Below, one piece after another: positions 2,155 through 28,404 of a DNA stretch of 38,290 bases. Location: positions 1-38,290 of the IMG/VR virus record IMGVR_UViG_3300005617_000159, one strand, 5' to 3'. The notes under the pieces were generated by a model. That model did no database searches and had not been told where the DNA came from. It was given only the letters and a program-made list of their open reading frames with translations. The position numbers and the translations under genes are program-made. The number at the start of each line of letters is the position of its first letter. The first letter of the stretch is position 1. This DNA is from a virus.

Positions 2155-2191
2155 AAATAAAAGAGCCGCAACGCGTCCACGTTGCGGCTCT
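2155..2191 (-). terminator. Intrinsic terminator of element 1
   Basis: An 11-bp perfect stem (2162-2172 with 2181-2191), 8-base loop, followed on the minus strand by TTTATTT and then directly by the start codon at 2154. Confidence 0.8.
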
Positions 2192-2296
2192 CAACCGGCC
2201 TTGCGGCTGGTTCCCCGGTGAAGGGAGAATGGTTTATGTCGTGGCGTGGACGCGCTTTGACTGCGGTTAGTGTTATGGTCAGAGCGCATATGTCAA
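2155..2296 (-). ncRNA. Switch-like leader RNA, element 1
   Basis: Minus-strand promoter: TTGACA at 2296-2291, 16-base spacer, AACACT at 2274-2269, so transcription should begin near 2262. The RNA then has a 5' arm CGCGUCCACG (2254-2245), a CCC/GGG hairpin, a GCAA-tetraloop hairpin, and a terminator hairpin (2191-2162). The terminator loop plus two stem bases, CGUGGACGCG (2181-2172), is perfectly complementary to the 5' arm. The two pairings exclude each other, as in terminator/antiterminator switches. The T-run ends at the ATG of the winged-helix gene. Compare elements 2-4. Confidence 0.7.
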
Positions 2297-2377
2297 GCCA
2301 AAGCAGCTCCGCGCGGTATTCACAAGGGACACACGAAACATCCTACCTCAACCCGGTGCGGCCTCTCGGCTCGCCTC

Positions 2378-2686
2378 CTAGCTCCGGCGGACTGCGGGCG
2401 TAAGGTGGGGCGGGACGGGAGCGGTGTCAAGCGCACGCGCGTTGATGGCCTCGGCCTCTCGCACGATGGCAATGAAATCTAGCTTTAGCGCATCCCAGCG
2501 CGCCTGCGGCATGATGGCGGTGATTTCGTGGCCGAAGTTCTCGCCGGTCGGTTGATTGGCGGCGGCAGAGTAGCAAACCTCCACTTGGCCGGTGCGGTGA
2601 ACGCGGCGAATGCGCCATGCGCCGGTTGCTTGGCTCTCGTGGTCGTTGGACGGGTAAAGACCCAGAATGATCGGGCGTGTTTTCAT
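2378..2686 (-). CDS. Hypothetical protein
   Basis: A 102-residue protein starting MKTRPIILGLYPSNDHESQ. It reads as a folded small protein: a beta-rich front (GAWRIRRVHRTGQVEVCYSA) and a helical back (ARWDALKLDFIAIVREAEAI). I recognise no family. A TTG seven codons upstream (2707) would add MSHRFLH, but the ATG is preferred. It ends about 80 bases before the promoter of element 1 and shares the strand of the winged-helix gene, so it may belong to the same early-type leftward set. The opposite strand around 2667-2715 starts a rightward gene. Confidence 0.6.
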   Translation of the reverse strand: MKTRPIILGLYPSNDHESQATGAWRIRRVHRTGQVEVCYSAAANQPTGENFGHEITAIMPQARWDALKLDFIAIVREAEAINARALDTAPVPPHLTPAVRRS

Positions 2687-2714
2687 GTGTAGGAAACGAT
2701 GGGACAAAATCGTT

Positions 2715-3056
2715 ATGCGTCAAGCGTGGTTCGGCATTGCGGTTTGTGCTTGCGCCGTGCGTGTGGCGTGCCATTGGTGCCGCGTGCAAACAAAAACTCA
2801 ACCCACACAAATTCCGTCGCCGTCGCGGGAACTCACCGACGGCTTTCGCAAACAATCGGGCCGTGGCGCACTCTACTCGGTCGTGTTCACGACACCGCGC
2901 ACGGGAGACGACACGCAGGACATAAAGCCGATGCTTGAGGCGGTGCTGGCTGAGTTCCCGAAGGCCGACCCTAACGAGGTGTGGCGGTGGTTCGCTGAAA
3001 AGCTATGCCGACAAGATGGCGACACCCTTGGTGGATTTATGAAACTACGGTTTTAG
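2715..3056 (+). CDS. Hypothetical protein upstream of terL
   Basis: A 113-residue reading frame ending 32 bases before terL. The C-terminal two thirds (from ELTDGFRKQSGRGALYSVV to GGFMKLRF) look protein-like, with an acidic helical part (LEAVLAEFPKADPNEVWRWF). The first 27 residues are Cys- and Ala-rich and less convincing, so translation may begin at an internal GTG near 2787. No family is recognised. Genes in this position between TerS and TerL are often small accessory proteins, but nothing here shows a function. Confidence 0.5.
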   Translation: MRQAWFGIAVCACAVRVACHWCRVQTKTQPTQIPSPSRELTDGFRKQSGRGALYSVVFTTPRTGDDTQDIKPMLEAVLAEFPKADPNEVWRWFAEKLCRQDGDTLGGFMKLRF

Positions 3057-3088
3057 GGCGGGCGCTATTCTGTGGTTGACGAAACCTT

Positions 3089-5188
3089 ATGCCGATAACC
3101 ATTGACGAAGCGCGGGCGATGCGCGGCTGGCTGCTGGACGTGCGGAAGAATGGGAGCACGCCACTGGCCGTGGCGGCGGCGAAACGGTGCGTGCTGCTGC
3201 TGGCGGATAAGGAGGCTGATTTCCTGCGGGCGCACGCGCATTTGTTCGCCAACACGGCGACGGGCATCAACGACATTGCGGTTGCGTTCGTGGCGTGGCT
3301 GTCGGCGGTTGGACGAAAGACGGCGGCGGCGGCGGTTTTGTGGGATGAAGACCAGTTCACAGCGGAGCCGGTTTGCGTGCGGAGGATATGGGCGGCGTTG
3401 GACGCTAACAACTATGTGGCGTTCATAGGCGCGAGTGGCCTTGGCAAGTCAATGTCACCTGCGATTTGGCTGCTGCTGGACTGGCTGAGTGACCCGACAG
3501 GGACGCGGGTGGATTTGGTGAGCACGGACGACCAGAAGTTGAAGGGGGCGCTTTATGCGAAGATTGTGAACCTGCACCAATCGGCGAGCATCAAACTGCC
3601 GGGCGTGGCGGCGGCTGAGACGCTGTCGCTGGACAGCAAGGCTGGGTTTGGCTTTCACCTGCAACTGATTCAGCGCGGGTTGATGTCGTCGGGCGAGTTG
3701 AAGGGTATGCACTTGTCGGCGCGGCCAATCCCGCACGCAATCTATGGGAAATACACGCGGCGGCGAGTGATGCTGGACGAGGCCGAGGAAATCCCGGTGA
3801 ACGTGTGGGGGCAGATTCCGAACGTGCTGGCGTCGTCGGACGCGGGGACGGACGGGGTTAAGATTATTGCGACGGCGAACCCTAAGAACCAAAACTCGAC
3901 CTTTGGCGAGCATTGCAAACCGGCGGATGGGTGGGGCGCGCTGCCGGAGGAGCCGCAGGAATGGAAGGCGGCGAAGGGCGCGACTGTCATCCGGCTGGAT
4001 GTGCGGAAGACGGAGAACATCATGCGAAACAAGGTGGTGTTTCGCGGGTTTCAGTCGCCGGATGGGTTTCGGGCGTTGCTAGATTCTTGCGGCGGTGATG
4101 AGAACCACCCCGACATGTGGACGTTCGGTTACGGGTTTTTCCCGCCGAATGGGAACGCGACGAACCTGATACCGCAGCGGTGGTTGATTGCGTGTCAGGG
4201 TGAATGGATTTTCACGCAGATGCCGATGCCGGTGGCGGGGTTTGATGTGGCGTTGGACGGCGGGGACTTGCCGATTCTGTGCACGGCGAGCGTGGGGCTG
4301 GCGGCGAAGTGGCGGAACTACGCCGGGCAGGAATTCACGCTAAAGGAGCCGAGGTGGGTGGTGCAGGTGGAGGCCGACATCAACGTGCCGCCGGGAGACA
4401 CGCAGGACGTGGCGGACGAGGCAATGGCGCGGTGTAGGTCGCTAGGGATTGAGGCGGAGAACTTGGCGGTGGACATAACGGGTATGCCGGGGGTGGGCGA
4501 CGTGATGGCGGTGCAATGGAACCGGAAAGTGCTGGGGCTGGCGTCGCACGATGCGCGGGCCGAGGAGCGTGCGCCGATTATCCGGGTGAACTATTCGGAG
4601 AAGCCGAGCACGATGAAGATTTCAGCGGAGGACAGCAAGACGCCGCGTGACCTGTATGACCGGACGGCTACGGAGCTTTGGTATCGGCTGTCGAAGTGGC
4701 TGGAACTGGACATTGTGCGGATAGGGCGTGGGGTGACGGCCAGCGCGATTGAGCAGTTGACATCGCGGCGCGGCGGTTACTCGGCGGTGCGTGGCGGGAA
4801 GAAAACGATTGAGCCAAAGAGCGTGCATAAGAAGCGGCTTGCGGGGAAGTCATGCGATCGGGCCGACGCCATAACGCTCGCCATATTTTCCGCCGCGATG
4901 CGCTGCGAAGGACTGGCCCCGCGCGCCAAGGACACTCCGGGGGATAGGCCGCTGCCCTACTCGCAATGGGGGCAGGAGAAGGCGTTTGGGCGTAGCTGGC
5001 GTGACCCGCTGGCGGTTGCGCCGGGTCAGCCTGCTAACTTGGGTGGTGCGCCGAGGTTTGCGCCGACCTTGGAGGGGTTGGAGGCGGCGCGGCAGGGCGA
5101 CACGCAGATTCCGGGGTTGCCGTCTCAGTTTGGCGGTGCGCCGATGCCGGTTGAGCCGACGCAGGGCGGCGCGTTGGGGATTTGGTAG
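3089..5188 (+). CDS. Terminase large subunit
   Basis: The DNA-packaging ATPase and nuclease, 699 residues. The ATPase domain shows Walker A GASGLGKS (114-121), Walker B RRVMLDEAEE (225-234; the acidic pair follows the hydrophobic strand) and the coupling motif IIATANP (259-265). The RNase H-like nuclease domain begins with GFDVALDGGD (384-393, first metal-binding Asp), continues with LAVDITGMPGVGD, and ends with the acidic motif in CDRADAITLA. An N-terminal extension of about 100 residues precedes Walker A, and a Pro/Gly-rich tail of about 70 residues follows the nuclease; such a tail often contacts the portal. It lies between TerS and portal. The ATG at 3089 is preceded by a pyrimidine-rich context without SD. 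The protein is complete and shows no frameshift. Confidence 0.93.
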   Translation: MPITIDEARAMRGWLLDVRKNGSTPLAVAAAKRCVLLLADKEADFLRAHAHLFANTATGINDIAVAFVAWLSAVGRKTAAAAVLWDEDQFTAEPVCVRRIWAALDANNYVAFIGASGLGKSMSPAIWLLLDWLSDPTGTRVDLVSTDDQKLKGALYAKIVNLHQSASIKLPGVAAAETLSLDSKAGFGFHLQLIQRGLMSSGELKGMHLSARPIPHAIYGKYTRRRVMLDEAEEIPVNVWGQIPNVLASSDAGTDGVKIIATANPKNQNSTFGEHCKPADGWGALPEEPQEWKAAKGATVIRLDVRKTENIMRNKVVFRGFQSPDGFRALLDSCGGDENHPDMWTFGYGFFPPNGNATNLIPQRWLIACQGEWIFTQMPMPVAGFDVALDGGDLPILCTASVGLAAKWRNYAGQEFTLKEPRWVVQVEADINVPPGDTQDVADEAMARCRSLGIEAENLAVDITGMPGVGDVMAVQWNRKVLGLASHDARAEERAPIIRVNYSEKPSTMKISAEDSKTPRDLYDRTATELWYRLSKWLELDIVRIGRGVTASAIEQLTSRRGGYSAVRGGKKTIEPKSVHKKRLAGKSCDRADAITLAIFSAAMRCEGLAPRAKDTPGDRPLPYSQWGQEKAFGRSWRDPLAVAPGQPANLGGAPRFAPTLEGLEAARQGDTQIPGLPSQFGGAPMPVEPTQGGALGIW

Positions 5189-5205
5189 CGGATGTGTGCC
5201 GACGT

Positions 5206-5439
5206 TCAGAACAGGGCGGTTTGGCCTTTGCATTCTCCGCGAGGAAGCCCTTTGGCGCGTGGTAGCTGCGAGGTGGAAACGAGTTGGTCGTAACGGTCGC
5301 GGTCAATTTCCATTCCGCGCATCCGATGAAGCCATCCTTTCACTTTTGGGTCAACGCCGAGATAGACGGTGAGAAAGGTTTTGGCTCCGCCGTTTTCTGT
5401 GCGACAAGCCTGTTCAATGTCGAGTTCGGTAAGTTGCAT
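5206..5439 (-). CDS. Small hypothetical protein, possibly longer
   Basis: A 77-residue protein from the ATG at 5439 (starts MQLTELDIEQACRTENGG, then TFLTVYLGVDPKVKGWLHRM). It has no recognised domain and is charged and probably helical. The frame stays open upstream for a further 94 codons to a TTG at 5721, and that TTG touches the T-run of RNA element 3 exactly as the ATGs of three other genes touch theirs. The extension (171 residues in all) is Gly/Arg-rich and not convincingly protein-like, so I call the short form and note the long form as an alternative. It is convergent with terL, whose stop is 17 bases away. Confidence 0.5.
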   Translation of the reverse strand: MQLTELDIEQACRTENGGAKTFLTVYLGVDPKVKGWLHRMRGMEIDRDRYDQLVSTSQLPRAKGLPRGECKGQTALF

Positions 5440-5972
5440 TGGGTAGTGTGTGAGAAAACTTGTTCTCCCCCCAAGCCGGGGGAATTCCTTGGCGGCGAGG
5501 CCAAGAATTGAGGGCGTCGGCCCGTCTCTCAAAAAATGGTCGGCTTTAGTGAGTCCGCCCCTTGTCCGCGTTGGCCCTTGTTCCCCCGCCCGCACCGAGT
5601 CACCTCCTGCCATGCCGGAAAGAATTCCCCTAAAGAACCGACATGGGCTTGTTGCCACTGCGTATTTTGAGAGTTCCGCCGTTCGGGGGCTGTGCCGTGG
5701 TAGTCTTTGGTTGACGGGCAAGAAAAGGCCCGGCCCACGGGTTCAGCGTAGGTCGGGCGGGATTTTCAAGGCGGGGGGCTTGGCGGCTTACCCCGTGAAA
5801 GTGTGCTCGATAGTCGCCGCTGAACCCGGTGACGGCGCAAAGTTGGGGCGACGTTTCCCCCGCCGTCAAGCGTTTTTTTCAACTATTTTTTACTTTCCAA
5901 TCTACCGAATAGCGGCCAACAAATACAGGTATAGACAACAACCCGAAACAAAATGGCGGTTATGCCAGTCTG
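5440..5972. other. Gene-poor stretch with RNA element 3 and hairpins
   Basis: About 530 bases without a confident gene. It contains RNA element 3 on the minus strand (5720-5869), an imperfect inverted repeat near 5611-5650 (ccatgccgg / ccgacatgg around an EcoRI-like gaattc), a second gaattc near 5483, and several short G/C hairpins. Being between terL and portal, it could also hold a packaging signal, but nothing proves that. Confidence 0.5.
5720..5869 (-). ncRNA. Switch-like leader RNA, element 3
   Basis: Minus-strand promoter-like sequence: an A-tract, then TTGACG at 5869-5864 and a weak -10 (CAACTT, 5845-5840, 18-base spacer). The RNA has a 5' arm GGGUUCAGCG (5827-5818) and ends in a terminator-type hairpin (5758-5728, one A-C mismatch) followed by CTTTTCTT. 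The hairpin loop plus one base, CGCUGAACCC (5748-5739), is perfectly complementary to the 5' arm. The geometry matches elements 1, 2 and 4, but the internal GCAA hairpin is not clear here. Confidence 0.6.
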
Positions 5973-6155
5973 ATGAGGAACTGGCTATGGTCGCAGATTG
6001 CTATTAAGGACGCAGAACTTGCGGCGCAGGAGCGCGGTGAATCCGGCGACGTTGCCGGGGCAATTCAGAGCGTGCTTGAAGATGTGACGCCAAACGCAAT
6101 CATGGCGGATGCTTTCGAGTCAGACGATGTTTTCCCTGAGCCAGGGGTCAACTGA
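5973..6155 (+). CDS. Small hypothetical protein
   Basis: A 60-residue, strongly acidic protein (starts MRNWLWSQIAIKDAELAAQE, later IQSVLEDVTPN and AFESDDVFPEPG). Composition is plausible for a real small phage protein, with a predicted helical first half. No family is recognised. It lies rightward between terL and portal; its end overlaps the end of the convergent leftward Cys-rich gene by eight bases. No SD sequence is visible. Confidence 0.45.
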   Translation: MRNWLWSQIAIKDAELAAQERGESGDVAGAIQSVLEDVTPNAIMADAFESDDVFPEPGVN

Positions 6156-6786: not shown

Positions 6787-6886
6787 TGGGTGGTTGGGTG
6801 CAGGCAATAGCGGGCGAAATAAAAACGCAACACCGAAAAAGGTTGCAATCATAGCAAATATGCTTTTGCGACTGAGTCACAATCCC

Positions 6887-9337: not shown

Positions 9338-9341
9338 GTTT

Positions 9342-9707: not shown

Positions 9708-9727
9708 TTTAACCGCCAATCCAACCT

Positions 9728-11209: not shown

Positions 11210-11229
11210 TAGCGTGAACCGCATAACCT

Positions 11230-11598
11230 ATGAAAACAGAACGTCCGCCGTTCGATACATCAAATAACCCCGTGATTGCGGAGCTTAACGCGCTTGTTTA
11301 TGAAACCTTCAAGCCAAAGTGGTCTAAGCGTGGGTGGATTTATCGTCGCATTTACTATTTGGGGGATAATGAACTTCCCTATGGCTGGACATGGATACTT
11401 GGAGGAATCACCCCAATAGCTTACGATTACGTCCTTGAAATTCTTAAGGCAGAAGGCAAAGACGTTTCCAAGTTCGAGATGTTTTTTGATGAAGAGAAAC
11501 GGAAGGGTGATGAACAGTGGAAAAGAGATGATGCGTTGCGCTCCTCCGCCAAGACGAAATTGACCGAAGCAGAGCGAAATGCGTGCGGCCTAGCATAA
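11230..11598 (+). CDS. Hypothetical protein, paralogue of the gene at 33437
   Basis: A 122-residue protein. Its first 80 residues match the protein at 33437-33691 in pattern: PPFDTSN, then I-A-x-L-N-x-LVY, P-x-W-x3-GW-x-Y, YY-x-GD, and TWIL-x-G-x-TP. The pattern is rich in Trp and Tyr and looks like one compact domain. The C-terminal 40 residues are charged and helical and absent from the shorter paralogue. The function is unknown. It opens a run of AT-richer small genes between the scaffold-like gene and the glycan island, suggesting recent acquisition. Confidence 0.7.
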   Translation: MKTERPPFDTSNNPVIAELNALVYETFKPKWSKRGWIYRRIYYLGDNELPYGWTWILGGITPIAYDYVLEILKAEGKDVSKFEMFFDEEKRKGDEQWKRDDALRSSAKTKLTEAERNACGLA

Positions 11599-11607
11599 AT
11601 AACAGCC

Positions 11608-11820: not shown

Positions 11821-11822
11821 CC

Positions 11823-12083
11823 ATGAAAAAACTAAATAAATTACTTCTCGCTTACATTCTTTGTGGCGTGCTATCTATTTGTCTAAATACGGGAGCCGAA
11901 CTCGCTTATTTCCAAGGCCAATATCCAACCGTAAGACACCCGCGTCAAGACCTCGCCCAAGCACTTGGGCATAACATCTTGTTTTCCCCAGTGTGGCCCA
12001 TTAATACATCTATCTTATTTTTCTACAGCGGATTTTACGAATACGGCTGGTATCTTGTTCCTAAATCAAACGGTCAACCATGA
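11823..12083 (+). CDS. Small membrane protein
   Basis: An 86-residue protein with an N-terminal hydrophobic segment (residues 7-22, LLLAYILCGVLSICLN) after a basic MKKLNK start, and a second hydrophobic stretch near 57-80 (NTSILFFYSGFYEYGWYLV). It is therefore likely a two-pass inner-membrane protein or has a signal anchor. Its stop overlaps the ATG of the following glycosyltransferase (ATGA), so translation is coupled. No family is recognised; a holin-like or glycan-island membrane accessory role are both only guesses. Confidence 0.6.
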   Translation: MKKLNKLLLAYILCGVLSICLNTGAELAYFQGQYPTVRHPRQDLAQALGHNILFSPVWPINTSILFFYSGFYEYGWYLVPKSNGQP

Positions 12084-14107
12084 AACCACTCACCCCAGAA
12101 CAACTAGCCGCCGCGAACATTTGGTATTGCGAAAACGTAAAGGCGTCGGTTATCCGTTCGGCCACTGGCAAGAAAGGCGGTCGAATCGGCCCCATGCTCA
12201 AGGCGAAGTGCCTAGACGAGTCTTTGCTACGGCGGCTTTGTCGCGTTATGCCGTGCGCGGCGATTGCGGACTGGCAGGAGGAGTATTCGGCAGAGCGTAT
12301 CCAGAAAACAGGTGCAGCTAAAAACCCACAACCTGAGCCGCTTGCGCCGGTTACTTTGGGCGATGTCCTGAAAGCTGATAAGAAACCCGCGCCGATTGCG
12401 AAGGCGCAACTTCCTTCCGCACGCCCTGAACTGAAAGACCCGCGCCGGATGGTCGTTACGCTCTCATTTTGGGACGGCGACGCGGCGGAGGCATCCGCGC
12501 TCATGGATTTGATTTTTGACTTGGGCGATGGCGTTGACCCGGATTGCGAGTTTTTCCTTTTCCGGCGCAATGACTGCCAACGCTGGGCGGCAAACACCCC
12601 GCCGCGTGACCTAACGCGCCGGTTTGCCCGTGTGGAGGGAGGAACTAGCAAGACGCCAGCCAACGGCTTCCCGCAGGCGTGCAACGCCATGTTCTACGAC
12701 TTGGCAGAAGCGGTGGCGATTAAGAACGCCGAGCGTGGGTATTTGTGCTGGCTGAACCTAGAGCCGGACGTTGTTCCGACGCGAAAAACGTGGCTAAAGG
12801 AAATCCGCCAAGAATACCTGTATGCGCTGAAAGAGGGCAAAATGTGCGTGGGGGAGGTTCGCACCGACCCGCAACCGCATCTGAACGGCGTTGCGGTCTA
12901 TCCTGCCGACCTTTATGCGCGCTATCCTGAAATTGCGGCGCGTGGTTGCCCGCCGGAAGGCTGGGCGTATGACATTTTCCATGCCTCGCAAATTCTGCCT
13001 GACGCCGTTGACAGCCCGCTTTTCAGCACGGACTGGAAACTGGCGACGGCGACGCCTGAGCGGGTGTTTCGCCCGCGCATTGGAAATGTCATACCTACCC
13101 TATTTCACGGCTGCAAGGACGGGTCGGCGGTTGAGGCGGTGAGAAAGTCAATTTTGGTTTCCGCTTCGTTGCGGCCCGGCCCCGTGACCATTACTCAACC
13201 TACAGTGACGGCAAGTTCATCCGACTATCTGCTTCCCATTTCTATCTCGGTTGCTTCCCCCCCGCCCCAAACCGCCATTGTGACGCCCCCGCCGACGGCC
13301 CCTAGTGCGCCATTGCCGCGAAAACTAGCCACTTCGGACGCCATACCCGCCCCAACACCCCTACCGGCCACGAAATTGACCGTTCTTGTGGCCTCTAATC
13401 GCGGTTTGCTCGCCCCGACCGTGGAAAGCCTGTTTCGCAACATCCGTCAAGGCGGTAGCGAATTCAACCTGCGAGACGTGGAGATTTTCACCGAAAGCGG
13501 GTATGACATTTTTGACAACCGCAACAACTTGGCGGCTCGCTTCCTGCAATACGGCGGCGAGTGGAGCCTGTGGATGGATGACGATGTTATCCTGCCGTGT
13601 GGCGATGCTGACTGGTTCAAGCGCGTGACCAGCGCAATCTACGACGACAAGTTTTGCGCCATTCCGGCCATTAACCGCCTGCTTTGGGTGGCACGCGAGA
13701 ATAACCGCAAGATTGTGGGTGGCTGCTATTTCGACCGAGCGCATCATGGAATTCCTTCTTTTCATGGTGGGCGCGTGAACTCCGACCTTCGCCAATCGCT
13801 GCAAACGCGCGGCCCGCGTGACGAAGTGATGCCGACCGCATGGGCGGCTACCGGCTGCCTACTTGTCCATCGCCAAGTCTATCTCGACATCATTCGCACG
13901 CGCCCGCAAGATGCGGTCAATGACCGCGACCGCAAGCCGTGGATTAGGCACGCCAACCGATTTTTCGACAAGATTGACGACAACGGCGACGATGTTTCCT
14001 TCTGCCAGCGCGCCCGTGAGGCAGGACATGAGCCAGTCGTTGACCTAGCGACGTTCTGCGGACACATCGGAAACCGCGTGGCGTTGAATGTTCCGATTGT
14101 AAAATAA
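12080..14107 (+). CDS. Two-domain glycosyltransferase
   Basis: A 675-residue protein with two GT-A-like parts. Residues 120-360 contain an acidic strand end (LNLEPDV, 226-231) and the motifs HLNGVAVY (267-274), GCPPEGWAYDIFH and HGCKDGSAVEAVR, all shared with the first half of the next gene. A Pro/Thr/Ala linker (365-430) follows. Residues 432-675 are a family-2-like domain with WSLWMDDDV (496-503; the DDD is the metal and nucleotide-sugar binding site), a TAWAATGCLLVHR acceptor-side motif and GDDVSFCQRAREAGH (general base region). It probably transfers two different sugars, or one domain is regulatory. It is the first of the glycan-island genes and overlaps its upstream neighbour by ATGA. 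Confidence 0.75.
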   Translation: MKPLTPEQLAAANIWYCENVKASVIRSATGKKGGRIGPMLKAKCLDESLLRRLCRVMPCAAIADWQEEYSAERIQKTGAAKNPQPEPLAPVTLGDVLKADKKPAPIAKAQLPSARPELKDPRRMVVTLSFWDGDAAEASALMDLIFDLGDGVDPDCEFFLFRRNDCQRWAANTPPRDLTRRFARVEGGTSKTPANGFPQACNAMFYDLAEAVAIKNAERGYLCWLNLEPDVVPTRKTWLKEIRQEYLYALKEGKMCVGEVRTDPQPHLNGVAVYPADLYARYPEIAARGCPPEGWAYDIFHASQILPDAVDSPLFSTDWKLATATPERVFRPRIGNVIPTLFHGCKDGSAVEAVRKSILVSASLRPGPVTITQPTVTASSSDYLLPISISVASPPPQTAIVTPPPTAPSAPLPRKLATSDAIPAPTPLPATKLTVLVASNRGLLAPTVESLFRNIRQGGSEFNLRDVEIFTESGYDIFDNRNNLAARFLQYGGEWSLWMDDDVILPCGDADWFKRVTSAIYDDKFCAIPAINRLLWVARENNRKIVGGCYFDRAHHGIPSFHGGRVNSDLRQSLQTRGPRDEVMPTAWAATGCLLVHRQVYLDIIRTRPQDAVNDRDRKPWIRHANRFFDKIDDNGDDVSFCQRAREAGHEPVVDLATFCGHIGNRVALNVPIVK

Positions 14108-14112
14108 TCACC

Positions 14113-15858
14113 ATGACTAACCAACCAGTCCCTTCCGGTTTCGTCCGCAACCTCGCGGGCGAACTTCACCCTGTTGCCATTCTCAACGACGGTATGCAGC
14201 GGACATCCAGTGAGCCGCGCTTCCTCGTTGTGATGGGCTACTATCATGGCGACTTGGCTCGCGTCATTCGGACGTGTGAGATAATCGCAGACTTGGAGCC
14301 GGACGTTAATCCGGTGGCTGATTTCTTGCTATGGGGCCGCTTCGACGCGACGGGCTTCCCTGACGATACACTGGCGCGTCTGCGCGCCAAGTTTCAGACT
14401 GTTCACGTCCAAAAGTCGGGGCGGCACGGCGCAACTGGTTTCCCTTATGGTGCAAACGAGATGTGGCACGACCTTGTGCATACCATGTCCGGCAAAGCGT
14501 GGAGCGAGCGTTACTATGCCTTTTTCAATATGGAGTGGGATGCGGTGCCTCTGCGGCGCGGCTGGATTCAGGAGCTAGATGCGGCGTGGAAAGCGGCGAA
14601 GGCGCAAGGAAAGGCTGTGCTGGGAGTTCACCAGACGACGCCAGCCCTACACGTCAATGGTGTTGCGGTGTATGACACGAAGCTGGCCGCGCTTGCGCCC
14701 AATGCGCGTCTCGGTGGTTGCAACCCGCAGGGGGCGTATGACGTGGAGCATAGGGACATCATCGTGCCAATGTCCAAGAACACTGGTCTAATCAAACTCG
14801 ACTATCGGCGTGCCACTATCTCGGCGGCTGAACTTTTGGGCGCGAATGACGGGCGCGGCCCATGCGTGCATCATGGCGTGCAGGATAGCTCCGCGATTGA
14901 TGCGGTGCGCGATGAGATTGTATTGGGGAAGGCGCGGGCGCAATCCAAGGCCGTTGTTTTCCACCAAAATTTTCCTGTGCCTCCCGGTTTTACGCCTGTG
15001 ACCGCTACTATTTCAACCAATCAGCCGCATTATCTTTTCATCCGCTCCTACACGAAAGACTTTCCATTTCTGAAATACTGTCTGCAAAGTGTGGCGAAGT
15101 TTGCGAGTGGGTTTGTTGGTATTAAGGTTGTTGTTCCGCAAACAGATGCCGCTACATTTACGGATGCCGGAGTTGATTTTACCGTCTGCGAGGCAGACCC
15201 GTGCAAAGGCTACCTCGCGCAGCAAATCACCAAACTTTATGCCGATAAGTTTCTGCCGGATGACGGCTGGGTTAGCTACATTGATTCGGACTGCATTTTT
15301 ACAGATGCTATCGCCCCTGCCGATTTCTTTCATGGCGGTAAGCCCATCGCGCTTTACCAGTCCTACGCCGAGTTGAAAGAGCAAGTGCCGTGGAAAGAGT
15401 CCACCGAGAAAGCACTTGGCTTCACCGTGGAAAACGAGCTAATGCGACGGCACGGCGCGACCTATCATACCAGCGAGCTTGCCGAGTTCCGGCAATGGTT
15501 CCTTTCCAATCGTGGCGTTACCGTGCGCGACTACATAATTGCCGAAGCGAACGCGGGCCGCTGTCTGGCGGAGTTCAATCTAATGGGCGCGTGGCTGTTC
15601 CGCTACAAGCATGGCACGCGGGCTTGGTTCAAGACGGAGAAGTATGAGGCTCCGCGTCTTCCGCTTAGTCAGTTCTGGTCGTGGGGCGGCATTGAGACGG
15701 CGCGGGCGCAGATTGAGTCATTGCTTGGAATCGGGGATGGCTCGACTCCGCCACCTATTGAACCTACTCGGCAGCCTGTCATTGCGCCTGTCGCCGATGC
15801 CGCGCCTGCGTCTAAGCGCGGGAGGAAGTCCAAGACAACGCTAGAGACCGCGCCATGA
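14113..15858 (+). CDS. Two-domain glycosyltransferase, DSD type
   Basis: A 581-residue protein. Residues 35-270 are related to the N-terminal half of the preceding gene (FFNMEWDAVP, LHVNGVAVY, GCNPQGAYDVEH, HHGVQDSSAIDAVR). Residues 305-540 form a second domain with RSYTKDFPFLKYCLQSV at its start, the metal-binding motif SYIDSDCIF (388-396) and a late EFNLMGAWLF motif; the DSD with a preceding Tyr resembles the DUF6492 group of putative glycosyltransferases. The C-terminal 40 residues are Pro/Ala/Lys-rich. It begins five bases after its neighbour and overlaps the next gene by ATGA, so the three are one translation unit. Substrates are unknown. Confidence 0.75.
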   Translation: MTNQPVPSGFVRNLAGELHPVAILNDGMQRTSSEPRFLVVMGYYHGDLARVIRTCEIIADLEPDVNPVADFLLWGRFDATGFPDDTLARLRAKFQTVHVQKSGRHGATGFPYGANEMWHDLVHTMSGKAWSERYYAFFNMEWDAVPLRRGWIQELDAAWKAAKAQGKAVLGVHQTTPALHVNGVAVYDTKLAALAPNARLGGCNPQGAYDVEHRDIIVPMSKNTGLIKLDYRRATISAAELLGANDGRGPCVHHGVQDSSAIDAVRDEIVLGKARAQSKAVVFHQNFPVPPGFTPVTATISTNQPHYLFIRSYTKDFPFLKYCLQSVAKFASGFVGIKVVVPQTDAATFTDAGVDFTVCEADPCKGYLAQQITKLYADKFLPDDGWVSYIDSDCIFTDAIAPADFFHGGKPIALYQSYAELKEQVPWKESTEKALGFTVENELMRRHGATYHTSELAEFRQWFLSNRGVTVRDYIIAEANAGRCLAEFNLMGAWLFRYKHGTRAWFKTEKYEAPRLPLSQFWSWGGIETARAQIESLLGIGDGSTPPPIEPTRQPVIAPVADAAPASKRGRKSKTTLETAP

Positions 15859-16499
15859 GAATTCTCTTAATTCACACTCACGGAAGCGTCAACGCTACCG
15901 TGGCTCGGCATTACCCGTATTATCTGGCAGCCGGTTGCGACCGCACGGTGGGAGTCCAAACGACTAAGGGCGATTGCAAGTGGCCTTCCGCTGATACGGT
16001 TGTCATCGGTGGAGATTCCTACGTTTCTGGAAATCACCTTCCAAGCCGACTTATCAGGACGTTGGAATATGCCGTCAAGGAAGGGGGAACTGAAATCTTG
16101 GTTGCCGAGTATGACACGATTTTCTTTAAGCCGCTCCCGCCTTTCCCGACTGGTTTTGTTCTAAACGAAACCGGCGGGGCAATGCCGGGTTATCGGTGCA
16201 GCCGATTTTTCCATGGGCCTTGGTGTATGGACGCAGAGACGGCAAAGGCTACGGTAGAACTTGGAGACAAGTTGCTTTTCCATGGGATTAACGAGGGCGG
16301 CTCTCCCGATACTTTCCTCGGTTACATCACCGACTTGCTTCAAATTCCTGTGCATGGTGGGGTATTCAAAAACTTCACTAGGAATTCGCTTGACCGTCCC
16401 GGCGACCTAGAGCTTGCGCGGCAAGCCTACCGCGACGGGGTGCATTGCATCCACGGCATCAAGCACGAACGGGAGCTAAACTTTATCCTAGCAAAATGA
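15855..16499 (+). CDS. Glycosyltransferase-like protein
   Basis: A 214-residue protein with a first beta strand MRILLIHTHG, a strand plus acidic motif ILVAEYDTIFF (81-91, position of a DxD-like metal site) and a conserved-looking HGGVFKNF segment. The fold pattern (alternating strands and helices, acidic strand end at about residue 85) resembles small GT-A enzymes, and both neighbours are glycosyltransferases. The acidic motif is EYD rather than DxD, so activity is not assured. It overlaps both neighbours by ATGA. Confidence 0.55.
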   Translation: MRILLIHTHGSVNATVARHYPYYLAAGCDRTVGVQTTKGDCKWPSADTVVIGGDSYVSGNHLPSRLIRTLEYAVKEGGTEILVAEYDTIFFKPLPPFPTGFVLNETGGAMPGYRCSRFFHGPWCMDAETAKATVELGDKLLFHGINEGGSPDTFLGYITDLLQIPVHGGVFKNFTRNSLDRPGDLELARQAYRDGVHCIHGIKHERELNFILAK

Positions 16500-17041
16500 A
16501 ACCCAAAAAAACCTCCATCAGTGGTAATAAACTAGAAGAACTTCCGGTTAGTATCGGATTGATGTTTGCATATGAAACCGAGAAGATACCAACCAAGGCT
16601 GGTTGCATCGCCCCGTCCACAATACTTGATTACACGTCGGCAGGTTTCGAGTATTTCTGTGACGCCTACTACGGTGGGAGCCCTTATCGTGGCGACATAG
16701 CCAAGGAAGGCTGGCGATCAAAAGAGCGCGGTTGGTGGATTTCAACAGATGATTCCGCTGCCATCAAGCACTTCTCTCACAAGTCCGACGAGAAAGAAAG
16801 TCCAAGGAATAATCTGCAAATGACGGAGCGTGCAGCCCAACGGGCGGCCATGCTTGGAATGAATGTGTCATTGATTCGTTACAACACAACTACTTTTACC
16901 AGAGAAACTATTCATCACCGCTCTCTTAGGTGCCGCCAAAACCTATTCCATGGGAATATCGAGTTGAATGACACCATCGCACTGATTTCCGACACCCATA
17001 AAACCGAGGAAAGGAAGTCGGGTTCTTGGTCTAGTTTGTGA
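16496..17041 (+). CDS. Hypothetical protein in the glycan island
   Basis: A 181-residue protein of lower GC content than its neighbours, coupled by ATGA to the preceding gene. It starts MKPKKTSISGNKLEELPVS and has a Tyr/Gly-rich stretch (YTSAGFEYFCDAYYGG) and a Lys/Arg/Trp-rich one (EGWRSKERGWWIS). No domain is recognised. The odd composition suggests acquisition separate from the flanking sugar genes. An upstream in-frame start (16445) exists but lies inside the previous gene. Confidence 0.55.
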   Translation: MKPKKTSISGNKLEELPVSIGLMFAYETEKIPTKAGCIAPSTILDYTSAGFEYFCDAYYGGSPYRGDIAKEGWRSKERGWWISTDDSAAIKHFSHKSDEKESPRNNLQMTERAAQRAAMLGMNVSLIRYNTTTFTRETIHHRSLRCRQNLFHGNIELNDTIALISDTHKTEERKSGSWSSL

Positions 17042-17054
17042 ACCGTATCGCACC

Positions 17055-17252
17055 ATGAAAAAACAATCCCACCTAGGCGACACAAGAACCATAACAAAGT
17101 TCTTATGGTTCCCGGCTATCTGCTATTCACCGAAAGGCGATGACAAGCGAAACATAAGATGGCTTGAGACGGCCACTATTCAGCAAAGATTATGCGTATT
17201 TGGACATGACGCAGGAGCGGGGGTTTGTTGGGTTAATGAGTCTTGGGTTTAA
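17055..17252 (+). CDS. Small Trp-rich hypothetical protein
   Basis: A 65-residue protein with the segment TKFLWFP, then RNIRWLETATIQQR and an ending VNESWV. The FLWFP…RWLE…Q…W pattern looks like small phage proteins of unknown function. It begins 13 bases after the preceding gene with ACC-ATG and ends seven bases before the rmlB-like gene. A 9-bp inverted repeat lies inside it (17086-17111). Confidence 0.55.
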   Translation: MKKQSHLGDTRTITKFLWFPAICYSPKGDDKRNIRWLETATIQQRLCVFGHDAGAGVCWVNESWV

Positions 17253-17259
17253 ATCATCT

Positions 17260-18270
17260 ATGAACATCCTCGTAACAGGCGGCTGCGGCTTCATCGGAAG
17301 CGCGTTTATCCGGCAACGGCTGGCGCGGCATGACGAGGGCGTGGACAAAATCGTGAACCTAGACGCGCTGACCTACGCGGGTAGCCGAAACAACTTGGCG
17401 GCGGTCGAGAACGACCCGCGCTACGTTTTCGCATACGGTGACATTGGCGATTACTGGCTCGTCACGCGCCTACTGAAAGAGCACGCGATTGACTGCGTGG
17501 TGAACTTTGCGGCTGAGTCGCACGTTGACCATTCGATTGACTCGCCGGAGCCGTTTTTCCAAACGAACGTCATTGGCACGCTGCGGCTGATAAACTGCGC
17601 GCGGTTTCACTGGATGGGTGGCGATGATTATGAAAAGGCGAAGTTCCGGTTCCTGCACGTCTCAACCGACGAGGTTTATGGTTCGCTAACACCAGACGCA
17701 CCCGCGTTCAAAGAGACGACCGCCTTTGCGCCAAACTCTCCGTATGCCGCAAGCAAGGCCGCGAGCGATTGTCTATGCCGCTCCTATTTTCACACCTACG
17801 GATTCCCCGTCATCACGACTAACTGCTCTAACAACTACGGGCCATACCAGTTCCCCGAAAAGCTGATACCGCGCATCATCACGCGAGCCCTAGAAGGACT
17901 AGAGCTTACAGTTCACGGCGACGGCCAGCAAATCCGCGACTGGATACACGTTGATGACCATTGCGCGGCGATTTGGGCGGTTATTCAGCGAGGGCGCGTT
18001 GGCGAGAGCTACGCCATTGGCGCGGATAACGAGATGATGAATCTTGGCGTGGTGAACGCCATTTGCGAGATATTAGATGACCGTCAAAAACTGACTGGCG
18101 AACGTTCCTACACGCGCAAAATCAAGCACACTGACGACCGCCCCGGAAACGACCGCCGATATGCGATAGACTCGGCCAAGGTTCGCCATGAAACCGGATG
18201 GATACCTTTAAAACGATTCGCTCAAGGATTAGCCGAAACGGTTGAGTTCTACGAGTCGCTTCACTTCTAA
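17260..18270 (+). CDS. rmlB: dTDP/UDP-glucose 4,6-dehydratase
   Basis: A 336-residue short-chain dehydrogenase/reductase of the RmlB type, converting a nucleotide-activated glucose to the 4-keto-6-deoxy sugar, the first dedicated step to rhamnose. It shows the NAD-binding motif TGGCGFIG (6-13), the Asp-Glu pair in STDEVYG (135-141; needed for dehydration), the catalytic Y162-x3-K166 (YAASK), and the CSNNYGPYQFPEKLIP signature of the family. The length is the usual one. I chose the ATG at 17260 because it starts the dinucleotide-binding strand directly; longer in-frame starts reach into the previous gene. It is followed at 18281 by an epimerase-reductase, so the two probably make an activated L-rhamnose. 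Confidence 0.92.
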   Translation: MNILVTGGCGFIGSAFIRQRLARHDEGVDKIVNLDALTYAGSRNNLAAVENDPRYVFAYGDIGDYWLVTRLLKEHAIDCVVNFAAESHVDHSIDSPEPFFQTNVIGTLRLINCARFHWMGGDDYEKAKFRFLHVSTDEVYGSLTPDAPAFKETTAFAPNSPYAASKAASDCLCRSYFHTYGFPVITTNCSNNYGPYQFPEKLIPRIITRALEGLELTVHGDGQQIRDWIHVDDHCAAIWAVIQRGRVGESYAIGADNEMMNLGVVNAICEILDDRQKLTGERSYTRKIKHTDDRPGNDRRYAIDSAKVRHETGWIPLKRFAQGLAETVEFYESLHF

Positions 18271-18280
18271 TCCACGCACC

Positions 18281-19159
18281 ATGATTTACCTACTCGGAGC
18301 ATCCGGCTACGTCGGGCAAGCCTACCAAGCGGCTATGCGGCGGCGTGGGATTGAGTTTCGCGTGATTGAGTCGAGAGACATAAACGTAATCGCTAGACAT
18401 TTCCAATGGAAGCAGCCGCTTCTTCACCCGGAATTCCTGATAAATTGCGCCGGTTTCACGGGGAAACCAAATGTAGAATCCTGTGAACAGACCAACATTA
18501 AGCCAACGTGCCTGTATTCAAATGCGGTGCTTCCGGGCCTTCTCGCCAATCTTTGTGAAGGCGTAGGCGTGCCATGGGGCCACGTCTCAAGCGGTTGCAT
18601 CTACTCAGGCACGCGCCCCGACTGGCAACCATGGCGCGAGGATGACCCGCCTAATTTCTGCTTCGGCTCGCCGCGCAGTAGCTTTTACAGCGGAACAAAG
18701 GCGCTCGGCGAACAAATCTTAGCCGGACGCCCAAACTGCTACATCTGGCGGATGCGCGTGCCATTCAACAACGTCGCTGGCCCTCGAAATTTCCTCTCGA
18801 AGCTCATGGCGTATGACCGCATCCTAGATAGCATGGAGTCACTAACCGAGCTTGACGAGTTTTGCAACGCAACGCTCGACTGCTGGCTGAAACGAGTGCC
18901 GTTCGGCACCTACAACGTGGTGAACCCCGGATCGGTCACGAAACGCGAGATTATCGGACTCATGGATAAAACCGGCTTGTGCCGCAAAGAGTTTCGCTAC
19001 TGGCAGGACGAGGCCGAGTTTATGCGCGAGTGTGGAAAAACGCCGCGCTCCTCCTGCGTGCTTGACGGCGGAAAGCTAGCCCGTTGTGGTGTGACCATGA
19101 CGCCCGTTCACGCCGTGCTTGAACGCGCCATGCGGAACTGGCAACCTACCACCGCATGA
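18281..19159 (+). CDS. Bifunctional 3,5-epimerase/4-keto-reductase, UER1-like
   Basis: A 292-residue reductase-fold protein. LLGASGYVG (4-12) binds NAD(P)H, and Y136-x3-K140 (YSGTK) is the catalytic pair. It resembles the plant NRS/ER (UER1) and mimivirus L780 type enzymes rather than bacterial RmlD: INCAGFTGKPNVESCE (54-69), SGCIYSG (104-110), an EDDPPNF element, RVPFN, and NFLSKLMAYDRILDSMESLT (170-189). In that family a Cys in the GCI motif and a Lys in the F-x-K segment act in epimerisation; C106 and K174 are both present and 68 residues apart, the spacing I recall for the plant enzyme. It would thus replace both RmlC and RmlD. It overlaps the next gene by ATGA. Confidence 0.82.
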   Translation: MIYLLGASGYVGQAYQAAMRRRGIEFRVIESRDINVIARHFQWKQPLLHPEFLINCAGFTGKPNVESCEQTNIKPTCLYSNAVLPGLLANLCEGVGVPWGHVSSGCIYSGTRPDWQPWREDDPPNFCFGSPRSSFYSGTKALGEQILAGRPNCYIWRMRVPFNNVAGPRNFLSKLMAYDRILDSMESLTELDEFCNATLDCWLKRVPFGTYNVVNPGSVTKREIIGLMDKTGLCRKEFRYWQDEAEFMRECGKTPRSSCVLDGGKLARCGVTMTPVHAVLERAMRNWQPTTA

Positions 19160-19920
19160 AAATTCACTTTCATACAAACTGTCAGGGCTACGGGCTTGAA
19201 TGGTTTTTCAAGCAGTCGCCGGATGCTTCCACGTTCACTACGGCGGTTATCCAAAACTTTCGCATTTGCACAAAGGAGGAAACGCGGGAGCAGGAAAAGG
19301 AGGTCGTAGAAAATGCTGACATACTTTTTTACCACGCGACCAAGCGTGTGTTTCCGTGGCCGGAGAGCGTGACGCCGCGCGCTGGCTGCACTCTCATCCC
19401 GATTTCCGTGTTTTACCAAGGGGCCAACTTTTTCATGGAGAATGCGAAGCAGGAGACTTGGCATCCGGTTATCGAGATGGCGAAGGCGGACGGAATCGAG
19501 CGCGCCGTGGGATGGCTGGTTGAGGAGGCCGACCTAAATTATGCCGCCCGATGGGAATCAGACTGCTTGCACATGGCAAACAAGGAGGACGAGGAAGGCG
19601 TTGACCCGGCCATCCGTATTTCGGGCTGGCAGCCGCAAGGTCGGGTTGAGCAACTATTCCTTACCAAGAACCACCCTACGTCGCTCGCGTTTGTCCGCTG
19701 GGCAAACGTGCTGCTGCGCCATATCGGGAAACAACCACTATCGTCGGAGTGGATTGAAAAGAGCCACGCTAACAATAATCTTGTAAATCTGCCGTGCGAG
19801 GATTGGGTGACAACCGCCGCCCGCAGGCATCTTGGCATGGCGTGGGGAGCGACCGACTACGAAAACAGACGGGCGCGCGAGTTCGCCAAAAACAAGCTGA
19901 CCGAATGGCTGGAGCATTAG
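19156..19920 (+). CDS. WcbI-like polysaccharide biosynthesis protein
   Basis: A 254-residue protein whose start, FHTNCQGYGLEWFF (5-18), carries the N-C-Q-G motif of the WcbI family (capsule proteins thought to be acyltransferases acting on capsular sugars), followed by a VIQNFRI segment and further strands (ADILFYHATKR, TLIPISVFYQGANF) usual for it. The middle contains a Trp-x-Val-x2 helix and an acidic stretch NKEDEEGVDP; the C-terminus has HANNNLVNLPCEDW. It probably acylates or otherwise modifies the glycan built by the neighbours. It is coupled by ATGA to the rhamnose gene. Confidence 0.65.
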   Translation: MKIHFHTNCQGYGLEWFFKQSPDASTFTTAVIQNFRICTKEETREQEKEVVENADILFYHATKRVFPWPESVTPRAGCTLIPISVFYQGANFFMENAKQETWHPVIEMAKADGIERAVGWLVEEADLNYAARWESDCLHMANKEDEEGVDPAIRISGWQPQGRVEQLFLTKNHPTSLAFVRWANVLLRHIGKQPLSSEWIEKSHANNNLVNLPCEDWVTTAARRHLGMAWGATDYENRRAREFAKNKLTEWLEH

Positions 19921-19931
19921 AAACCTATCCA

Positions 19932-21674: not shown

Positions 21675-21677
21675 TTG

Positions 21678-21808
21678 TTGACGCCATGCGCCGATTGAAC
21701 ATTCTCCTGTTGTCCTCGCGTGGTAGCGTGGCGACAAAATCACTTTCCCGTATGGGACGTTCGGCGCAAGCTGGGCGGGTCGTGACGCTACCACGTCACG
21801 ACTTTTTT
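21678..21808 (+). ncRNA. Switch-like leader RNA, element 4
   Basis: Plus-strand promoter: TTGACG (21678-21683), 16-base spacer, CATTCT (21700-21705), start near 21712. The RNA has a 5' arm CGUGGUAGCGU (21719-21729), a UCCC/GGGA hairpin, a GCAA-tetraloop hairpin (CGGC/GCUG), and a terminator (21779-21802). The terminator loop with part of its stem, ACGCUACCACG (21785-21795), is perfectly complementary to the 5' arm. It aligns well with element 2 between the arms (shared ACUUUC, CGUA, GACG, GCGCAAGC, GUGACGC). The T-run is followed at once by the ATG of the homing endonuclease. Confidence 0.75.
21779..21808 (+). terminator. Intrinsic terminator of element 4
   Basis: A 9-bp perfect stem (21779-21787 with 21794-21802), 6-base loop, then six T and the ATG at 21809. 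It would also stop transcription arriving from the upstream glycosyltransferase genes unless antitermination occurs. Confidence 0.8.
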
Positions 21809-22309
21809 ATGGGATTCCAAATAGGCAATACTCTAAATCGTGGCCATAGCCGTAAAGGCAATAGCGTAGTTCAAATTTATGACCCCGGAGATAAAATAAT
21901 CGAAGGGTTTTGGTGGAAACTTTCTTCGTGGGGATATGCGAGAAGGGCTGGCCCATGGAATAACGGGAAACCCACTAGGATTTGCGCGCACAAGGCAATC
22001 ATGGAGGACATTCTAGGTAGAAAATTAACCAAGGGTGAACTCGTTGACCACATAAACGGAAACAAGTTAGATAACCGTAGGTCAAATCTTCGGCTTACGA
22101 ATAAGGTTGGGAACGGCCAGAATAGGCACGACCTAGGAGAATTTCGGGGAACTTGTTGGTCTAAATGCAACATGGCATGGAGGGCATACGCAACAATACG
22201 AGGCAAGCAGCATCATGCCGGGCTTTTTCAAGATAGAAAAGACGCGGTTATCGCGGCAACTGCCAAGAGAAAAGAACTTGGATACCTGACATCTAATTCA
22301 ACACCATGA
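21809..22309 (+). CDS. HNH homing endonuclease with AP2-like domain
   Basis: A 166-residue protein. An N-terminal beta-rich part is followed by an HNH core: ICAHKAIMEDILGRKL, then VDHINGNKLDNRRSNLR (D-H-x-N-G…N-R-R-S-N-L-R), and a C-terminal AP2-type DNA-binding domain (FRGTCWSKCNMAWRAYATIR, then HAGLFQDRKDAVIA). It is paralogous to the leftward gene at 27819. Such genes are free-standing selfish elements cutting near their own site. I chose the ATG at 21809, directly after a T-run; longer frames read through the RNA element. It sits inside the glycan operon, and its stop overlaps the next gene start by ATGA, so it is fitted to the operon rather than randomly placed. Confidence 0.85.
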   Translation: MGFQIGNTLNRGHSRKGNSVVQIYDPGDKIIEGFWWKLSSWGYARRAGPWNNGKPTRICAHKAIMEDILGRKLTKGELVDHINGNKLDNRRSNLRLTNKVGNGQNRHDLGEFRGTCWSKCNMAWRAYATIRGKQHHAGLFQDRKDAVIAATAKRKELGYLTSNSTP

Positions 22310-23166: not shown

Positions 23167-23211
23167 ATAAACTTGCGCTTCCGCTAGTCGGACGCGTAAA
23201 ATCGAATCACC

Positions 23212-23687: not shown

Positions 23688-23705
23688 GACTCATTCGCAA
23701 ATAAG

Positions 23706-23740
23706 TTGACAAGCGGGAAAACCCCGCTCAATAGCGGGGC
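23706..23740 (+). promoter_or_regulatory. TTGACA box and alternative hairpins before the adaptor gene
   Basis: TTGACA (23706-23711) is followed by three alternating arms: AGCGGG (23712-23717), CCCCGCT (23722-23728) and AGCGGGG (23733-23739). The middle arm can pair with either outer arm, and the second hairpin ends one base before the ATG at 23741. No good -10 is seen at 16-18 bases; a promoter here would give an almost leaderless mRNA. Confidence 0.45.
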
Positions 23741-24754: not shown

Positions 24755-24763
24755 TTTGCAGCC

Positions 24764-27265: not shown

Positions 27266-27318
27266 CCCGTTCGTGTAAAAACTTGACTTTGTAACAACCT
27301 CCCGCAAACCCTTCCAAT

Positions 27319-27834
27319 ATGGCGCAGCAAACTTTCCCCGTCACGCTCATTGCGATTCCGGCTCCGGTCGGCATCGAGGCTTTCACGTTTAACCAGTTGA
27401 CGCAGTTGCTGGCGCAATACCTGAGTGCGAGCGTTAGCACGGATGTTACGTTTTTTGAGCAGGGAAGCGTTTTGCCGACGACCGACCAAGGCGTCGTGTT
27501 TTTTAGCACGACTACTGGGTGTTTTTATTTCTGGAATAGCACCGTAGGGGCTTACGTGGTTGTAGGGCAAAACTTGGTTCCCGGAGACGTAAAGTTCGAT
27601 TATGATTCTGCCGATGAACTTTCATCCGGTTGGGTTCTAGCAAGTGGAAGCCGAGCTATTGATAGCATCACTACACTTTCCACTAATCAGAATACGGCGG
27701 CTCATACGCTTTGGGGCGCAGGGGCCACCGTTCAGGTTCCGAACATCACCGCGCCTGTTTCTACCGTCGGGGGTGGCGGGGGTAGCGGCGGGACGCTTTA
27801 CCCGAAGGTATTTTTGGGTTATCCAATATCTTGA
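27319..27834 (+). CDS. Small tail-fibre-like protein
   Basis: A 171-residue protein rich in Thr/Val/Ser with FFEQGSVLPTTDQGVVFFST, TTGCFYFWNSTVGAYVVV and a Gly-rich stretch (STVGGGGGSGG) near its end. Such short beta-rich proteins after the nozzle are often fibre-tip or tail-spike assembly pieces. It overlaps the 3' end of the convergent homing endonuclease by 16 bases. A TTGACT occurs about 40 bases upstream (near 27282), but without a good -10. Confidence 0.5.
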   Translation: MAQQTFPVTLIAIPAPVGIEAFTFNQLTQLLAQYLSASVSTDVTFFEQGSVLPTTDQGVVFFSTTTGCFYFWNSTVGAYVVVGQNLVPGDVKFDYDSADELSSGWVLASGSRAIDSITTLSTNQNTAAHTLWGAGATVQVPNITAPVSTVGGGGGSGGTLYPKVFLGYPIS

Positions 27835-28271
27835 AAACAGAAAAAACCAAGTTCACGTCTTTTCTTCTTGGCGGCTTCTGCCGCATCTTTTCTGCGTTCA
27901 AATATCCCGGCGTAATGTTTTTTTCGTTTGTGAATAACTTCGGCAACCCACTTCCCGCTTCTTTTTTCAAACCACGTTCCCCTGAATCTGCCTCTGGTGT
28001 GTTGGTTTTGGATGTTTTCTCGTTGAGATACGACTCTAAGATTAGACCTTCGGTTATCCCATTTATCCCCGTTGATATGGTCGCATACCTCGTGTCTAAG
28101 TGGATGCCTGCCCAAAGTCCTAGCGATTATGATTCTGTGAATTGTAATAGGAATTTCGCCAGTTGGCTTTCTGAATGCATAGCCAATTTTTGCTCTAGTC
28201 CATCGGAATATAAGAAGGTCTTTGTCTTCTTCGGAAACGATGGGCGGTGGGAAGCGTTGTGTGATAGCCAT
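27819..28271 (-). CDS. HNH homing endonuclease with AP2-like domain
   Basis: A 150-residue paralogue of the endonuclease at 21809: ITIHRIIIARTLGRHPLR, then CDHINGDKWDNRRSNLR (HNH core), and an AP2-type C-terminus (FRGTWFEKRSGKWVAEVI, HYAGIFERRKDAAEAA). It lies on the minus strand inside the rightward tail genes. The ATG at 28271 directly follows the T-run of the terminator of RNA element 2, and it overlaps the end of the convergent fibre-like gene by 16 bases. It is a free-standing selfish endonuclease. Confidence 0.85.
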   Translation of the reverse strand: MAITQRFPPPIVSEEDKDLLIFRWTRAKIGYAFRKPTGEIPITIHRIIIARTLGRHPLRHEVCDHINGDKWDNRRSNLRVVSQRENIQNQHTRGRFRGTWFEKRSGKWVAEVIHKRKKHYAGIFERRKDAAEAAKKKRRELGFFCFQDIG

Positions 28272-28303
28272 AAAAAAGGCCGCAACGCGGGGGCGTCACG
28301 GCC
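28272..28303 (-). terminator. Intrinsic terminator of element 2
   Basis: An 11-bp stem with CCCC loop followed on the minus strand by six T and then the start codon at 28271. Confidence 0.8.
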
Positions 28304-28404
28304 CGCCGAGCTTGCGCGCGGCGTCTCTTACGAGAAAGTTTTTTGGTCACAACGCCCCCGCGCTTTGACATGGGCTAGAATGATTGACTTCATACCCAAT
28401 GCAA
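28272..28404 (-). ncRNA. Switch-like leader RNA, element 2
   Basis: Minus-strand promoter: TTGCAT (28404-28399), 16-base spacer, CATTCT (28382-28377), the same -10 and spacing as element 4. The RNA has a 5' arm CGCGGGGGCGU (28362-28352), a UCUC/GAGA hairpin, a GCAA-tetraloop hairpin, and an 11-bp terminator (28303-28278, two G-U pairs, CCCC loop). The loop plus flanking stem, ACGCCCCCGCG (28296-28286), is perfectly complementary to the 5' arm. The T-run ends at the ATG of the endonuclease. Confidence 0.75.

Follow-up and report, generated by a model that had tools for sequence, protein, structure and literature searches.

The window analysed here, namely the whole of IMG/VR record IMGVR_UViG_3300005617_000159 (38,290 bases, classed as linear), carries a tailed-phage-like gene set that includes large structural-type ORFs without an assignment and a terminase gene (3089-5188; phrog_2 match). 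The terminase, portal-like and capsid-like proteins had no matches among 50,697 phage records, the terminase and portal-like proteins had none in viral contigs, and judged from these proteins this would be a phage without a recognisable relative. By eye, across the whole window, the start context of most genes is ACC-ATG-like with almost no Shine-Dalgarno sequences, which suggests a host with Shine-Dalgarno-independent initiation.

A run of sugar-related genes (12080-19920, plus strand) lies within the structural region. One of its products resembles dTDP-glucose 4,6-dehydratase (about 57% identity to a plasmid-borne RfbB), and the run also holds ORFs that look like glycosyltransferases, together with one resembling a dTDP-sugar reductase; glycan decoration by these genes is possible. 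Elsewhere, two small proteins encoded on opposite strands (11230-11598, plus; 33437-33691, minus) look paralogue-like by eye, sharing a start PPFxTSxxxxIAxLNxLVY... and a stretch WIL-G-TP.

Anatomy of the four elements

Four elements, c1 to c4, each combine a -35-like site, a conserved GTC, an arm of 10-11 nt, internal hairpins and an intrinsic terminator. In the RNA the order is GUC, 2-4 nt, the arm, GAC, P2, P3, terminator and T-run, with an A-rich 10-nt junction after the GAC in c1, c3 and c4. The elements and the genes behind them are:

2155-2296, minus strand: element c1
2291-2296, minus strand: c1 -35-like TTGACA, followed after 16 nt by the -10-like AACACT (2269-2274) and after a further 7 nt by GTC at 2261
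2155-2261, minus strand: c1 RNA, with GUC as probable +1, arm CGCGTCCACG (2245-2254), P2, P3 (GCAA), terminator (2162-2191) and T-run
1477-2154, minus strand: gene for an HTH_36-like/DnaD-like protein of replication-initiation type, 225 aa, its ATG abutting the c1 T-run
5722-5869, minus strand: element c2
5864-5869, minus strand: c2 -35-like TTGACG, 18 nt from CAACTT and lying within AAAAAACGCTTGACGG
5722-5833, minus strand: c2 RNA, with GTC start, arm CGGGTTCAGCG (5818-5828), diverged interior, terminator (5728-5758) and T-run
21678-21808, plus strand: element c3
21678-21683, plus strand: c3 -35-like TTGACG, followed after 16 nt by the -10-like CATTCT (21700-21705)
21712-21808, plus strand: c3 RNA, with arm CGTGGTAGCGT (21719-21729), P2, P3 (GCAA), terminator (21779-21802) and T6
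21809-22309, plus strand: gene for an HNH_3 endonuclease, 166 aa (PF13392 E=6e-9, phrog_99 E=1e-23), its ATG abutting the c3 T-run
28272-28404, minus strand: element c4
28399-28404, minus strand: c4 -35-like TTGCAT, followed after 16 nt by the -10-like CATTCT (28377-28382)
28272-28369, minus strand: c4 RNA, with arm CGCGGGGGCGT (28352-28362), P2 (GUAA loop), P3 (GCAA), terminator (28278-28303) and T6
27819-28271, minus strand: gene for an HNH_3 endonuclease, 150 aa (PF13392 E=2e-11, phrog_99 E=1e-25), its ATG abutting the c4 T-run

An earlier, sequence-only reading of this DNA had described four arm/terminator pairs and a GCAA tetraloop in three copies, and both are present: the arm is exactly complementary to the terminator loop and inner 3' stem in all four elements, and the GCAA loop is found in P3 of c1, c3 and c4. 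It had also placed a start codon right after every T-run. An ATG directly abuts the T-run in c1, c3 and c4, but the TTG-initiated ORF of c2 (171 aa) has no family match and no codon-usage support, the latter being weak evidence as both HNH genes score low too; on its sequence the c2 "TTG gene" is not supported. The promoter-like sequence assigned to each copy has a conserved spacing, the -35-like site being followed by 16-18 nt, a -10-like xAxxxT, 6-7 nt and GTC. In three of the four elements TTGAC precedes the GTC by 34-36 nt (c4 has TTGCAT), for which we obtained P ~6.5e-7 as a post hoc estimate given the 105 TTGAC sites on both strands of the window. None of the element promoters, however, reaches the cut-off of a generic promoter scan (9-of-12 consensus). 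The GTC is the probable +1 from its position, and with this start the RNAs would be about 97-112 nt long.

The promoter-like region of c2 has a second occurrence in the window, as the identical 16-nt AAAAAACGCTTGACGG is found at 5863-5878 (minus) and at 34805-34820 (minus), where the site stands before the minus-strand gene run 34769-33437, with TTGACG-17-AAGTAT shortly upstream of the first ATG. We also note that GTCAA at the starts of c1 (2257-2261) and c4 (28365-28369) reads as TTGAC on the opposite strand; in the case of c4 this TTGAC is oriented towards a plus-strand gene at 28425, and divergent overlapping promoters are therefore possible.

Membership in a single class is solid for c1, c3 and c4, but less so for c2, which shares with the others the promoter, the GTC start, the arm and the terminator geometry, but whose core has diverged and which has no credible gene behind it. 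The conserved core (GAC, the A-rich 10-nt junction and GCAAG) is limited to c1, c3 and c4. Similarity of c2 to these three is weak (z 1.1-3.1), as is that of the c1 interior to c3 and c4 (z 2.5-2.9).

The product of the gene behind c1 matches phrog_1456 (E=7e-12) and phrog_4707 (E=8e-11), with a Pfam HTH_36 match (E=1.2e-4) below the curated cut-off. The HNH_3 proteins behind c3 and c4 are 43-44% identical to one another, and the GC3 of their genes (0.40-0.43) is low compared with several other phage genes, for which reason they were probably acquired. The stop codon of the c3 HNH gene overlaps the ATG of the next gene (22306), and c3 is located within a same-strand gene run, so that full termination there would lower expression of the downstream genes too, unless these have promoters of their own. 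The U-run followed by ATG at c1, c3 and c4 is a distinct layout, given that most other genes have an ACC-ATG-like start, and the absence of a Shine-Dalgarno before these three ATGs presents no problem because most genes here have none. A further endonuclease-like ORF (450-818, minus; phrog_2340 E=4e-11) has no RNA element upstream.

Two mutually exclusive folds

Each RNA can be drawn in two ways. In the ON fold the arm and inner bases pair with the terminator loop region; the resulting helix, P1, closes a three-way junction whose other two helices are P2 and P3. In the OFF fold the arm is enclosed in P0 (GUC..GAC), which is followed by P2, P3 and the terminator hairpin. The GUC can pair either with GAC in P0 or with GAC/GGC of the terminator 3' strand (c1, c3, c4). 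The 4-nt loops of P0 and the terminator are exact complements of one another (c1 GUCC/GGAC, c3 GGUA/UACC, c4 GGGG/CCCC), and in c2 the two loops are complementary across 7 nt (GGUUCAG/CUGAACC). The inner pairs of P0 add little, because they are implied automatically by the complementarity of arm and terminator.

Compensatory covariation in both structures, as claimed from the sequence, holds for c1, c3 and c4, three sequences from one genome. In their alignment both sides have changed in 10 of the 26 pairs of the ON fold (94.9% of cells paired; 0/500 shuffles) and in 8 of the 21 pairs of the OFF fold (95.2% paired; 1/500 shuffles), and pairing falls to 29-49% in slid-alignment controls. c2 is weakly similar to these three and was missed by the covariance model built from them. 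A conserved peptide encoded in the RNA region was ruled out; a stop interrupts the c1 frame and the changes are compensatory.

Predicted energies of the ON and OFF folds (in kcal/mol) are -39.7 and -45.6 for c1, -40.6 and -38.9 for c2, -51.4 and -44.2 for c3, and -51.7 and -48.7 for c4, the predicted default state being OFF for c1 and ON for c2, c3 and c4. The ON prediction for c3 fits its place in a same-strand gene run; a logic shared by the copies is not obvious, because the predicted default states differ. Direct-path barriers between the folds are predicted at 22-33 kcal/mol, from which interconversion would be slow after synthesis and the choice presumably made while RNA polymerase nears the T-run. 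The earlier proposal of a terminator/antiterminator switch is well supported by exclusive covarying folds of near-equal predicted energies with a promoter-like site just before the arm.

The arms stand out from the background of this DNA. Of the five strong terminators that a scan for terminators and arms detected in the window, four had an exact arm, as compared to arms on 0 of 36 terminators in ten dinucleotide-shuffled windows. Among 20,000 shuffled leaders an arm recurred 8 times for c1, never for c2, twice for c3 and 11 times for c4. Fold stability gave z of -3.6 to -4.2 for c1, c3 and c4, and of -2.1 for c2.

Search for relatives

The sequence-only reading recognised no known RNA class and had proposed both a comparison with Rfam and a covariance-model search for homologues. 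In agreement with the former, Rfam 15 gave no match above the gathering score in the entire window, and E-value scans of each element gave either nothing or matches far below threshold. The latter brought no convincing homologue in the viral contigs searched: over 50 HNH-linked viral contigs the best match of our model had E=0.49, and the same search recovered c1, c3 and c4 in the window as a positive control. The combination of arm and terminator was absent from 80 viral HNH_3 loci, the sole match in that scan being this phage's own c4, and no copy of the element was found in these 80 loci or in 58 viral contigs searched whole. Given its absence from the 80 HNH_3 loci and the 50 HNH-linked contigs, HNH_3 (phrog_99) genes do not carry the element as a rule.

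Other routes led no further. The promoter-like repeat AAAAAAACGCTTGACGG is present in eight viral contigs, none of which has the RNA element. One DNA pattern of the core gave two matches, dismissed as chance (one is within a coding gene), and a second pattern gave none. Searching viral contigs with the c4 HNH protein, the terminase, the portal and the c1 protein returned one distant HNH locus only, and the c1 protein and a sugar epimerase against genomes, like c3 by blastn against plasmids, returned nothing useful. The sole blastn match of c4 was a generic GCGGCC terminator in Salmonella phage SEN34. Weak opposite-strand matches of the covariance model were the P1 palindrome read backwards, and its match at 36316 overlaps an ordinary terminator; there, a long strong hairpin with a T-rich tail and without an arm (36320-36359, plus) follows the capsid-like gene at 35009-36262. 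The lack of homologues may reflect the isolation of this phage and the scope of the covariance-model search, which covered viral contigs in collections from which close neighbours of this record may be missing, and on these comparisons the RNA family is apparently new and so far a singleton.

Proposed mechanism and alternatives

We consider it probable that the elements are promoter-proximal, cis-acting transcription attenuators whose fate is decided during transcription, and in our best reading such an attenuator has spread, by copying or shuffling, among several genes within one phage. Sequence and counts show both helices, that they exclude each other and that c1, c3 and c4 conserve the two together, as well as a matching geometry in c2; transcription start, termination, read-through into the gene and regulation are inferred. 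RNA polymerase would start at the conserved GUC, and the first ~24 nt would fold as P0, GUC...GAC enclosing the arm. P2, and then P3 with its GCAA loop, would form before the terminator strand emerges. In the OFF state P0, P2, P3 and the terminator would stand side by side, transcription would stop in the U-run and the gene would not be made. In the ON state the arm would take the terminator loop and inner stem (P1), blocking the terminator and letting the polymerase enter the gene a few nucleotides later. Most likely the choice would be biased, via the A-rich junction, P2 and P3, by a phage or host RNA-binding protein, by the polymerase/Nus state or by a ligand. Ligand sensing had been suggested in the earlier reading; as no homologue was found, there is no basis on which to argue for a conserved ligand pocket. 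Nearly as likely is an unregulated leak at a fixed level, by which the amount of a DNA-cutting enzyme would be kept small.

A bolder proposal, which we put forward tentatively and hold to be less probable than not, is that these are a new bistable class of phage RNA, in which the three-way-junction core senses a phage or host factor and a portable cassette sits on DNA-cutting and replication genes. If so, several small genes would be switched together, each copy having its private arm sequence. For a phage, multi-copy terminator/antiterminator leaders positioned right at start codons would be an unusual arrangement; they would show homing endonucleases and a replication-type gene under one common RNA control cassette, with covariation that is readable within a single genome.

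Other explanations share part of this evidence. Small RNA genes, each made up of a promoter, a ~100-nt structured RNA and a terminator and acting in trans with the gene as a mere neighbour, would account for the promoter-like site and terminator of every unit, for the compact, highly structured RNAs and for the want of a convincing gene behind c2. Such RNAs would, however, have no need of an arm that competes with the terminator of the same RNA, or of T-runs that end on a start codon in three instances, and their arms and loops differ per copy and so offer no common target sequence; we regard this as unlikely. An attenuator of the pT181/pIP501 kind, in which the terminator forms once an antisense RNA has bound the 5' hairpin, has the same layout, namely an antiterminator in the 5' hairpin, a terminator beside the start codon and loops suited to kissing. 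Its divergent arms would prevent cross-talk, and the c1 target is indeed a replication-initiator-like gene. Two of the targets, though, are HNH and not rep genes, and the ~150 bp that follow the terminators of c1, c3 and c4 contain no TTGAC-type antisense promoter. We hold a countertranscript to be very improbable.

Ribosome-mediated attenuation of the trp type would use the same 1:2, 2:3 and 3:4 pairing logic, and short ORFs do cross c1 and c4. The ATGs of both ORFs nevertheless precede the inferred +1, by 2 nt in the case of c4; in c2 and c3 no ATG occurs from the inferred +1 to the arm end, and there is no shared peptide, no Shine-Dalgarno and no common leader ORF after the inferred +1, so that a leader peptide seems scarcely credible. 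We give equally little credence to a DNA-level element, such as a MITE-like inverted-repeat transposon remnant or an operator palindrome with an incidental RNA fold. Long inverted repeats do flank a spacer of ~45 nt, and the HNH genes are of a mobile kind with a foreign base composition. Shared sequence would be expected of transposon ends or operators, however, and here the arms differ in every copy, the changes are compensatory and the T-run orientation always agrees with the gene.

Comparison with known systems

In trp-type attenuators a pause hairpin, an antiterminator and a terminator provide a three-state logic; the elements described here share this pairing logic, in copies without a common leader peptide. 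They also resemble Rfam riboswitch and leader families in that a three-way junction feeds a terminator/antiterminator platform, but have no Rfam match.

Among phages, the homing endonucleases of T4-like phages (mobE, segF, segB, I-TevI) have their expression limited by RNA structures, including 5'-end terminators in mobE and segF (PMC2988022). There the terminators are located within the coding sequence or hairpins hide the ribosome-binding site, and no antiterminator arm is mentioned in these descriptions (PMC2988022). Here, in contrast, the terminator ends exactly before the ATG, and in one case the gene behind it is not an HNH gene. We found no T4-type hairpin sequestering a ribosome-binding site in the elements, there being no Shine-Dalgarno and only a U-run between stem and ATG. 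In cluster K mycobacteriophages the SAS/ESAS sequences likewise occur in multiple copies at start codons, and in some of them imperfect inverted repeats of 17 bp enclose a variable spacer (PMC3203893). Their copies have a common consensus sequence and are tied to translation initiation (PMC3203893), whereas here the arm sequence is free and the pairing is kept.

Judged by sequence, the layout most resembles that of the pT181-type rep leaders, whose attenuator mechanism has been described (PMC4878617). As in the repC and repR leaders of pT181 and pIP501, an antiterminator is held in a 5' hairpin, a mutually exclusive terminator precedes the gene, and the loops are of a kissing type (for pT181, PMC4878617). 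Unlike in those leaders, the arm here pairs with the terminator loop and inner stem rather than with the 5' stem only, no antisense promoter of the TTGAC type was recognised near c1, c3 and c4, and multiple copies stand before unrelated phage genes.
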